DNA from: Prevotella sp.
Lineage (GTDB): Bacteria > Bacteroidota > Bacteroidia > Bacteroidales > Bacteroidaceae
Direction of reading: 5' to 3'
Assembly (NCBI GenBank): GCA_017538105.1
Contig: JAFYJN010000076.1
Span: forward strand, 1-64,000
Length of the DNA stretch: 64,000 nt
A program made the position numbers and the translations under genes. Below the pieces are notes generated by a model. The model ran no database searches, had not been told where the DNA came from, and saw only the letters and a list, made by a program, of their open reading frames with translations. Positions within the stretch are counted from its first letter, which is position 1. The number at the start of each line of letters is the position of its first letter. Of the stretch, positions 22,054 through 24,229 are shown piece after piece.

Positions 22054-23286
22054 ATGGATTATTTCGACTATATCATTAATAGGAATGCAGCTAAGAAAGA
22101 AAATCCGGGCAAACTATCTTCATATAGAGAGGCTGCGGAACTGATATGTATGTGCTGGGATAGACTGGACATGAGTTTCGTCGCGCCTTATCTGGACGAG
22201 AACATAATCTGGAAAGGAGGCGAGCCGTATAAAGTCATCAAAGGAAAGGAAAACTACCTGAAGTTGATGGCTCAAGTGTTTGATTCACTTCATTATTCAA
22301 AGAAGTGTTTTAGGGCGGATGTTGATGGGGCAGATGACAGGTCATGTGCTATTATTACCGTTGACGGCGAGTATCAAGACATGATGCATCGCATGAAAAT
22401 AGAGGATGGACTTATCAAAGAAATTGAGGTGAAGCCCTCGCCTTACTGGTGGTGCAAGCAATTAGGAGGCAGGTCTCCATTTGGAGTCATAACTCAGACA
22501 TCATTGCATGAACAAGCAGCTGCTGTGGCAGCAATAGAACAGTATATCAAAACGGAAGTGGGCAACAAGGGTATCACATGGGCTACACCATACGAGTTGA
22601 AGAACTCTCATTGCCAACTATCATTCACATGCGACGGACTGTCATACGACGTTTTGGTGGAAATTCATAGCTTTGACGACAATAAATGCCGTTTCGTGAT
22701 GTATACGGAATACCACAACCTTATTGTAAGTTGCAAGGAGAATAACCACATTCCTTGTATCCTGGCACTCAATGAAGACCAAGAATTTGTAAGTCTGACA
22801 ATTCTAGAGGATATGGATGTTAGAATACAAAAGTTGAGGAGTAAAGGCATCAACGAATGGACGTTCAGAGGGCTGTTCAAGACGAAGGCACAACTAAGCA
22901 GGCTCATCATCACCAAAGACTATAAGATTTTGTTACCCGACTATAATGACATCGAGGTAAAGATGGAACCGCTTGTTAAAGCAGTGTATTTCTTGTTCCT
23001 AAAGCATCCAGAAGGTATTGCATTTAAGGAATTGACTGATTATAGGGAGGAATTGCAAGATATATATAAGATTCTGAAGCCCATGGGATTGAGCAAGCGA
23101 ACAATTCAAAGTATAGAGGATGTTACAAATCCTTTACTTAATTCCATCAATGAGAAATGCGCCAGGATTCGCTCTTCATTTGTGAAGGAATTCGAAGAAG
23201 GTCTTGCCAAAAACTATTTTGTAACCGGAGAACGAGGTGAGGCAAAAAAGGTGACATTGCCCAGAGACTTGGTTGTCTGGGAATAA
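22054..23286 (+). CDS. Hypothetical protein with N-terminal SnoaL/NTF2-like domain
   Basis: 410 residues, soluble. Residues about 25-130 look like a SnoaL/NTF2-like cone fold (AAELICMCWDRLDMSFVAPYLDENIIWKG.. to ..MKIEDGLIKEIEVKP). Residues about 150-270 form a second alpha/beta domain of unknown type, and the rest (about 300-410) is helical and charged. Function unknown; NTF2-like domains bind small ligands or mediate dimerisation. Flanked on both sides by the palindrome CACAAG(G/C)CTTGTG. Confidence 0.55.
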   Translation: MDYFDYIINRNAAKKENPGKLSSYREAAELICMCWDRLDMSFVAPYLDENIIWKGGEPYKVIKGKENYLKLMAQVFDSLHYSKKCFRADVDGADDRSCAIITVDGEYQDMMHRMKIEDGLIKEIEVKPSPYWWCKQLGGRSPFGVITQTSLHEQAAAVAAIEQYIKTEVGNKGITWATPYELKNSHCQLSFTCDGLSYDVLVEIHSFDDNKCRFVMYTEYHNLIVSCKENNHIPCILALNEDQEFVSLTILEDMDVRIQKLRSKGINEWTFRGLFKTKAQLSRLIITKDYKILLPDYNDIEVKMEPLVKAVYFLFLKHPEGIAFKELTDYREELQDIYKILKPMGLSKRTIQSIEDVTNPLLNSINEKCARIRSSFVKEFEEGLAKNYFVTGERGEAKKVTLPRDLVVWE

Positions 23287-23339
23287 TAACGTCTTTTAAA
23301 CATTCTTTTTAGGACTTCACAAGGCAAAAGTTCAACTTT

Positions 23340-23352
23340 CACAAGCCTTGTG
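23340..23352. repeat. 13-bp palindrome CACAAGCCTTGTG, right copy
   Basis: Counterpart of 21963-21975; a half copy (CACAAGGC) lies near 23318. It is just upstream of the promoter of the structured RNA. Confidence 0.7.
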
Positions 23353-23364
23353 ATTGGATTTTGC

Positions 23365-23395
23365 TTGGCAAGAATAACAGAAAAAGATATATTTG
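23365..23395 (+). promoter_or_regulatory. Promoter upstream of the structured RNA
   Basis: TTGG at 23365-23368, 19-base spacer, -7 box TATATTTG at 23388-23395. A second TATATTTG lies at 23450-23457, directly before the structured part, and may be the real start. Confidence 0.65.
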
Positions 23396-23460
23396 CACAC
23401 GAAAAAATCAAAAATAAACAAATAATGAATATGTTTGAGTTTTTTTATTTATATTTGCAT

Positions 23461-23770
23461 CGGCTGATTGTGTGAGGCACCTATCGATGACGTTCATAGT
23501 CAGTCAGACAATTACATACAGGCGTTTACTGCGCTTTGGTTTTGACGTATTGGAATCCGGAAAATTCAAATGTCAGTCAGAAACAAGGCAACGTGACGCC
23601 CCTTGGTGTATATTATTATACACGTGGGGCTTTAACGTTGCTCGTCTTCCACTGACAGGGCGATTTCCGGAGCCTCAATACGTGAAGCGAGCATCAGAAA
23701 GGCTCCACGTTTTGTATCGTTTTTGGCAGATATCATTATTCGTTGTATATACGTCTTGGAGCCGGGCGGA
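23461..23770 (+). ncRNA. Highly structured RNA: nested long hairpin with alternative pairing
   Basis: Six perfectly nested helices: ACGTATTG 23545-23552 with 23676-23683; TCCGGAAA 23556-23563 with 23664-23671; TGTCAGT 23571-23577 with 23651-23657; GCAACGT 23588-23594 with 23635-23641; GCCCC 23598-23602 with 23626-23630; GTGTATA 23606-23612 with 23617-23623 (loop TTAT). That is 42 pairs in about 140 bases. GGCTCC at 23701 can pair with GGAGCC at 23669 (breaking the long hairpin) or at 23758 (keeping it), a switch-like choice. The 102-residue frame here looks spurious. I recall close relatives of this sequence elsewhere in Prevotella genomes, but cannot confirm. It lies 25 bases before a membrane-protein gene: either its leader or a separate RNA. 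Confidence 0.65.
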
Positions 23771-23794
23771 GAAGAAGTAAAAAAGACTATAGTT

Positions 23795-24229
23795 ATGGGC
23801 TATGTTTTAAGGTTTATAGGAGCTATACTTGCTACAGTTGTATTTGCTATGATTGCTGTTTTGTTTCATTTCTTGTTTTTCGGAGGAGCGGCCCACTTCT
23901 TCGCTAATATATCATGGCATAGCCTGTTTAGTTTCGATTCACTGCGAGGTCTTCTGTTACCTTTGGCATGGACTATCATGTGGTTAGTAGCCATGGGAGC
24001 AAAATGGATTGTGAAAGGGAACATCTGGTTAGCTGTCATCCCTATCTTAATCTGTATTTTAGGTTTGATTCATGGATTCGACATTTTGTTCCTCCATCCG
24101 TATGAAGTAATTATTTCAGACATTGGCCATGGTTTTTGGTACTATTTAGGAGCGATACTAACTTATATTGGAATGATTGTGTTCTTTGCGATTTTTGGAT
24201 TTTTTATTCTGTCAAAAGAAGGCATCTAA
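23795..24229 (+). CDS. Small multi-pass membrane protein
   Basis: 144 residues from the ATG at 23795; the longer in-frame start at 23723 would begin inside the structured RNA. Four hydrophobic segments (about residues 2-30, 50-68, 75-95, 115-138). No family recognised. Follows the structured RNA by 25 bases, and 32 bases later comes another small membrane protein, so the group 23795-27483 may be one transcript controlled by that RNA. Confidence 0.6.
   Translation: MGYVLRFIGAILATVVFAMIAVLFHFLFFGGAAHFFANISWHSLFSFDSLRGLLLPLAWTIMWLVAMGAKWIVKGNIWLAVIPILICILGLIHGFDILFLHPYEVIISDIGHGFWYYLGAILTYIGMIVFFAIFGFFILSKEGI

Follow-up and report, generated by a model that had tools for sequence, protein, structure and literature searches.

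A long structured RNA in front of a gene series in Prevotella sp. probably belongs to a new class of attenuator RNAs that act in cis in the Bacteroidales and would decide on transcription of the gene or operon behind them. Judged from the sequence, an attenuator or riboswitch-like leader is the best reading of this element. The leader RNA is mostly preceded by a promoter box and followed by a gene on the same strand; by sequence, it features an intrinsic terminator ahead of this gene, the stem of which covaries; and three covarying alternative helices—the base of P2a, PK, and D—share nucleotides with the terminator. The element lies in the window, i.e., the whole stretch of 64,000 nucleotides that was analysed (assembly GCA_017538105.1, contig JAFYJN010000076.1, positions 1 to 64,000, forward strand). 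The Bacteroidales are a dominant order of the mammalian gut, and few RNA switches are known from them. The leader RNA is common, often multi-copy, and stands ahead of accessory genes such as those for surface proteins, capsule antiterminators, and defence-like helicases. The present analysis yields loci, a covariance model, and alternative helices with covariation, all of them open to direct tests, and identifying the signal could reveal what these bacteria sense when switching such genes on.

Table 1. Features of the leader RNA and its surroundings, in window positions.
Feature	Position	Strand	Pairing or sequence	Basis
Bacteroidetes-type -7 promoter box	23450..23457	+	TAnnTTTG, TATATTTG	sequence
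P0, variable 5' hairpin	23462..23505	+	23462-23472 with 23495-23505	MFE fold
P1, small hairpin	23521..23535	+		pairing across copies
A5, alternative 5' hairpin	23539..23584	+	23539-23546 with 23576-23584; apical GAA 23553-23555 with UUC 23565-23567	
Long hairpin P2a/P2b/P3/P4/P5/P6	23545..23683	+	six nested helices	covariation
P2a	23545-23552/23676-23683		8 pairs	read from sequence
P2b	23556-23563/23664-23671		8 pairs	limits are our own reading
P3	23571-23577/23651-23657		7 pairs	read from sequence
P4	23588-23594/23635-23641		7 pairs	read from sequence
P5	23598-23602/23626-23630		5 pairs	read from sequence
P6	23606-23612/23617-23623		7 pairs	limits are our own reading
PK	23640..23692	+	GCUCGUCUUC 23640-23649 with GAAGCGAGC 23684-23692; one bulge in the window	
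T, intrinsic-terminator-like hairpin and U-tract	23680..23724	+	ACGUG 23680-23684 with CACGU 23706-23710; U-tract 23710-23724	
D	23701..23763	+	terminator 3' arm GGCUCC 23701-23706 with GGAGCC 23758-23763	covariation across loci
Hairpin presenting the downstream element in its loop	23752..23768	+	CGUC-UUGGAGCCG-GGCG	flanking-stem count
Small membrane protein, encoded by the first gene past the RNA	23795..24229	+		ORF; no Pfam match

The leader has a length of approximately 260 nt in the window and of up to approximately 340 nt where the central loop is longer (Table 1). Transcription would start near 23463, a few bases past the TAnnTTTG box. The earlier note on this DNA had placed a clean promoter ahead of the RNA; the Bacteroidetes-type box lies there. 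A generic sigma-70 scan returned one other site and did no better than in shuffled sequence. The 5' part opens with P0, the ends of which are more complementary to each other than with one end shuffled (14.9 versus 11.3 in 133 copies), followed by P1, which is paired in 76-99% of 191 copies per position and varies little, so that covariation lends it no support (z 1.7, 44 of 500 permutations as high). The six perfect, correctly nested helices with 42 pairs described in the earlier note are all present in the sequence at 23545-23683, and their total agrees. The window RNA is more stable than its dinucleotide shuffles (z -3.9, none of 100 equals it); for the reverse strand, the margin over shuffles is even larger (z -5.5), and the direction of the element therefore rests on the promoter box, the U-tract, and the gene order. 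The ATG that had been noticed shortly past the RNA is found, in the downstream frame, at 23795. It opens the gene for the small membrane protein, which is followed by genes for a DUF6804 protein, a zinc ribbon protein, and a DnaJ-RDD protein, and these genes may form one operon. The 410-residue protein encoded directly upstream of the RNA (22054-23286 in the window) has no Pfam match.

The long hairpin is conserved by compensatory change. The first alignment, A1, holds 26 copies from 31 loci; L009, L011, L024, L025, and L026 were omitted as duplicates or near-duplicates, for one missing end of the core, or for want of a local blast match. RNAalifold predicted 51 pairs on these 26 copies, 19 of them with compensatory change. 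The nested structure—written from members of this same alignment—leaves 95.1% of the cells of A1 paired, with change on both sides in 18 of 40 pairs and 134 doubly changed cells against 40.8±7.0 in shuffled alignments. The covariation score of the structure is 0.365, compared with 0.150±0.009 for shuffles and no more than 0.081 upon sliding. Compensatory change in the helices had been named in the earlier note as the test of its reading, and the homologues that carry it bear out the further claim that these helices are not a product of chance. In the larger set, 255 loci gave 254 profile matches, of which 208 remained without short matches and identical cores; the 5' half was found in 198 of these, and 191 passed the gap filter. 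The covariance model R1 covers the 3' half only—the 5' halves were located separately—and the full-length alignment has 263 columns that are more than half occupied. The strongest Watson-Crick column pairs across the 191 copies fall in P2a, P2b, and P3. Shared descent adds to this signal, since several column pairs that also rank high, such as 5:42-3:48 and 3:4-3:9, are not base pairs. Upon permutation of the 3' strand among 82 copies less than 78% identical, P2a reaches z 17.8, P2b 12.9, P3 13.9, and P4 3.1, statistics that ignore kinship. P6 sits in the variable loop. Loci that came from the pattern scan have fixed pattern letters in part of the toggle strand (see below) and in part of the 3' strand of P2b.

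Three further elements share sequence with the long hairpin or with each other. The hairpin A5 is built from the 5' half alone; P2a and P3 have bases in common with it and their 5' strands lie inside it, so that A5 would be expected to exclude both. It covaries at columns 5:26-5:68 (UA 80, CG 51, UG 35) and 5:39-5:53 (GC 110, AU 56), and its three parts reach z 7.4, 5.3, and 6.3, each with none of 500 permutations as high (82 copies; kinship ignored). In the pseudoknot PK, GUUGCUCGUUC reaches into the terminator loop through 11 pairs, each of them kept in 91-99% of 191 copies. It competes with P4, and its partner strand 23684-23692 comprises the 5' arm and the loop of the terminator. Change on both sides occurs at 3:27-3:64 (CG 94, UG 76, UA 18) and at 3:25-3:66, and PK reaches z 5.9 with none of 500 permutations as high, kinship being ignored and one strand being partly fixed by the pattern in loci from the pattern scan. 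On A1, A5 and PK together score 0.214 against 0.165±0.009, a smaller gain over shuffles than that of the long hairpin, with four doubly changed pairs, a number that 18 of 500 shuffles reach. A further hairpin considered as an alternative, 3alt (3:15-22/38-45), is weak (z 2.4, 14 of 500 permutations) and was set aside.

The third element, T, resembles an intrinsic terminator. Its stem covaries (3:62-3:87 UA 150, CG 16; z 3.4, 0 of 500 permutations, kinship ignored), and at least five T within the 10 nt past the stem are found in 151 of 155 copies, with a mean of 7.3 against a background of 2.8. The copy in the window is a weak one, with a stem of 5 bp and an interrupted U-tract, and it is absent from the output of a terminator scan restricted to loops of 3-8 nt. 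T has nucleotides in common with two covarying elements, the base of P2a and PK, and its 3' arm is also part of D; these overlaps suggest that all three would exclude T in the cell.

D connects the 3' arm of the terminator with an element past the U-tract. Within 23461-23800, there is a single GGCTCC, at 23701, and there are two GGAGCC, at 23669 and 23758. The earlier note had proposed that GGCTCC pairs with either of the two in the manner of a switch, and one half of this two-way switch stands. Covariation across loci shows that the pairing of GGCTCC with the downstream TGGAGCC at 23757 is real: its own score of 13.97 compares with 11.10±0.31 after permutation, and none of 1000 permutations is as high (51 loci less than 80% identical; kinship ignored). 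The pairing with GGAGCC at 23669 fails as a switch arm, with an own score of 9.40 against 9.29±0.21 and 308 of 1000 permutations as high; 8 of the 51 loci reach for it the threshold that 35 reach for the downstream option. The competitors are instead A5, PK, and T. A wider comparison of the terminator 3' arm with the following 96 nt gave 15.0 for the own sequence against 12.9±0.17 for permuted ones in 135 of 208 copies, namely those with a locatable arm and enough sequence downstream; in 58 loci with an arm outside the common type, the values are 14.8 and 11.9±0.24. The downstream element is mostly presented in a hairpin loop: a stem flanking the D partner is found in 84 of 105 loci with strong D, compared with 33% when the flanks are shuffled. 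The distance from the end of the D element to the next ATG has a median of 20 nt (101 loci in which an ATG was found).

The location of D also bears on how the RNA acts. As D reaches past the U-tract, pure attenuation cannot account for its conservation, and covariation across the U-tract within a locus needs an RNA that reads through the terminator. This argues against a discrete small RNA with a promoter of its own that is released at the terminator and acts in trans, the gene behind being a neighbour or a target. Such an RNA would fit the promoter box and the U-tract of nearly all copies examined, but the terminator arm covaries with an element past the U-tract of its own locus, and 145 of 182 copies are followed by a same-strand gene at no more than 250 nt; this reading is improbable, although a released RNA could still have a second role. 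For 177 of 192 copies, a TAnnTTTG box is present in the 170 nt ahead of P1, compared with 30 of 368 control stretches taken downstream; its median distance to P1 is 70 nt. Going downstream, 165 of 182 copies meet a same-strand ORF first, at a median distance of 72 nt; in the other 17, an ORF on the opposite strand comes first, and in 20 more, the same-strand ORF is more than 250 nt away. Going upstream, the first ORF shares the strand of the RNA in 103 of 166 copies. These counts come from a simple ORF caller, and the opposite-strand and distant cases are partly miscalls. Four multi-copy genomes contain 46 matches. The 30 of these that were read all have a forward frame starting 20-226 nt past the RNA; these frames have at least 55 residues in 29 cases and 36 in the remaining one (forward strand alone scanned).

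The earlier note mentioned annotations of such sequences as spurious small proteins, and the frame 23472-23780 is indeed open in the window. Some open forward frame is found in 42 of 198 copies, more than in shuffles (39 of 990). However, the other 156 copies have stops in all forward frames over the core, no frame is conserved, and the freely varying central loop together with the compensatory changes accounts for the frame pattern. A small protein gene is thus the least credible of all readings, to the point of being negligible, and the view that the sequence has the look of a conserved regulatory RNA and not of a gene is supported by the covarying helices and the closed frames.

The attenuator reading suggests the following sequence of events. 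The 5' half of the nascent RNA would close first as A5. Upon emergence, the 3' half could dislodge A5 to form the long P2-P5 hairpin, the base of which would take the foot of the terminator stem and so let the polymerase read through. Should A5 persist, the foot would stay free, the terminator would form, and transcription would stop. The strand GUUGCUCGUU(C) would act as a toggle, pairing either within P4 or, as the pseudoknot, with the terminator loop. In the read-through RNA, the 3' arm of the terminator would pair with the loop shortly before the start codon—a pairing that may keep the terminator open and could tune translation as well. Candidates for the signal are a metabolite, a protein such as an UpxY/NusG paralogue, or other.

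The leader RNA is widespread within the order. A blastn search with the window RNA returned matches in 36 of 200 genomes of the same genus, with its own genome counted, and so provides the Prevotella homologues that the earlier note had called for. R1 matches 184 of 299 genomes of this genus, in keeping with the claimed recurrence in Prevotella, and 54 of 393 genomes of the order in 29 of 206 genera; among 296 genomes drawn across the phylum, it matches one, which is the window's own. The range exceeds Prevotella: a pattern scan of named genomes gave at least 120 stretches with the motif, and among the 80 listed are Prevotella ihumii, Segatella copri, and Bacteroides caecigallinarum as well as MAGs of Muribaculaceae, Paludibacteraceae, Alistipes, and Alloprevotella, besides others. 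Two of the listed contigs with the motif, L123 and L152, are labelled Firmicutes and Lachnospiraceae; these may be binning errors, since the remaining listed names all belong to the Bacteroidales or Bacteroidia. Under a more sensitive setting of the R1 search with E <=0.001, the matches in four chosen genomes number 17, 13, 9, and 7, the weakest at approximately 28 bits. The genome of the window has two strong and two weak R1 matches; the weak ones (G000:C76:3812-3893 and G000:C88:115827-115920, E 8e-4 and 2e-3) are possibly further divergent copies.

Many matches per genome in front of unrelated genes might also be the mark of a MITE-like mobile repeat that inserts before genes and whose structure is a property of the DNA, and a mobile element was one option of the earlier note. 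The copies, however, are not near-identical—within three genomes, they share 47-83% identity in the 3' half—and they mostly keep one orientation and spacing relative to the gene, the majority standing directly before a gene on the same strand. Phage and plasmid collections gave no match in a distant blastn search; two pattern matches, L225 and L226, occur in contigs of the viral collection IMG/VR. A mobile repeat is accordingly a very remote prospect. The nearest homologue, L003, has an RNA 94% identical to that of the window and the same flanks (92% over 2616 aligned bases), which indicates that the element there was inherited together with its gene. The RNA was absent from the examined stretches around 20 distant relatives of the L047 target protein (27-38% identity, 19 of 200 genomes); these relatives are too distant to judge gain or loss.

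The genes behind the leader RNA are diverse and unrelated, with no single metabolic theme. The scan of downstream proteins covered 137 of the 149 eligible ones, truncated at 380 residues; the 12 omitted by hand were mostly short or near-duplicate. A crude rule, applied with no control, assigns 33 signal peptides and 23 lipoproteins to these 137. Among the 25 of 69 Pfam families listed, BspA-type LRR_5 and ResIII are found in five proteins each, SNF2 in four, PEGA, LytTR, and NusG in three each, and TerB and VWA_2 in two each. NCBIfam identifies three UpxY antiterminators and four DISARM DrmD-like helicases, and PADLOC returns matches of the DrmD/HKD-Snf2, BrxP, GajB, and TerY types. Further copies stand ahead of genes for NusG-domain (three by Pfam), LytTR, BspA-type, and C10 peptidase proteins. 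Similar small secreted proteins with the motif KATK(A/S)ARKEAK are encoded behind L086 and L090, both of one genome, and behind L294 of another, as if RNA and gene had been duplicated together.

The presence of antiterminators among these targets brings in a reading that overlaps with the attenuator and does not exclude it: the RNA may be a recruitment element for processive antitermination by a NusG paralogue of the UpxY type or by another protein, in the manner of LoaP and RfaH. The fold would then attract a factor instead of sensing a metabolite. The UpxY genes make up 3 of 137 targets by NCBIfam, and Pfam adds three more targets with a NusG domain. According to PMC7593976, adhesin and capsule operons are served by NusG paralogues, and how paralogues encoded within their own operons are recruited is reported as unknown. 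This report and the presence of UpxY genes among the targets make UpxY-type paralogues one candidate for the signal; the target list of the leader is of similar diversity. Two genomes with six and nine matches to the leader (G006 and G027) are without a PF02357 match, which speaks against such recruitment; yet 82 of 298 genomes, 11 of 130 good ones included, are without any, so that the search evidently misses NusG and this negative is weak. The recruitment hairpins known to us are less elaborate than the competition between A5 and P2, which we count against this reading, and we know of no antitermination recruitment element of the size of the leader RNA. The recruitment reading is rather unlikely.

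For the attenuator, a broader proposal can be put forward tentatively, with somewhat less than even confidence: one class of RNA sensor could be a global regulator in gut Bacteroidales, by which a single signal, acting on up to approximately 17 copies per genome, would jointly control genes for surface proteins, capsule antiterminators, LytTR regulators, and phage defence by means of a two-fold switch, with the pairing across the terminator coupling transcription and translation.

The leader RNA, as far as its sequence tells, works like a terminator-controlled leader and belongs to no Rfam family. It resembles terminator-controlled riboswitches and attenuators of the T-box type in being a large 5' leader with its own promoter, a sensor-like domain that covaries, and an intrinsic terminator that has its 5' foot in common with an alternative helix. 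In contrast to these, it has no Rfam match, no metabolic theme, and an additional pairing of the terminator arm past the U-tract. The leaders governed by UpxY in Bacteroides capsule loci, by LoaP, and by RfaH are likewise sites of control in the leader region; UpxY stems from the same order, and UpxY genes stand behind some copies, whereas most targets of the leader RNA are not NusG paralogues. PMC7593976 names adhesin, capsule, and other accessory operons as targets of these systems, similar to those of the leader RNA. OLE, GOLLD, ROOL, and raiA, which are large and complex structured RNAs of bacteria with no assigned function and a patchy distribution, are comparable in size, complexity, and spread; the RNA described here differs in that it matches no Rfam model, holds a leader position, and is often multi-copy.

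No title among those listed from the open-licence literature describes the leader RNA. A survey of HMP2 data predicted thousands of structured-RNA candidates in human microbiomes, Prevotella and other Bacteroidetes included (PMC8040213); no candidate named in the passages compared fits, and a fragment of the leader RNA may be listed in its supplementary tables. The Rfam scan suggested in the earlier note gave no match in the window at the gathering thresholds of Rfam 15, and a permissive scan of 23300-23900 gave four matches far under their thresholds, the best with E 0.63. In 15 other loci, Rfam matched 5S rRNA and abiF RNA, neither of them at the leader RNA. The abiF RNA (RF03085, 47.8 bits) lies at L112:1254-1290 in Prevotella ihumii, approximately 430 bases from a copy of the leader.
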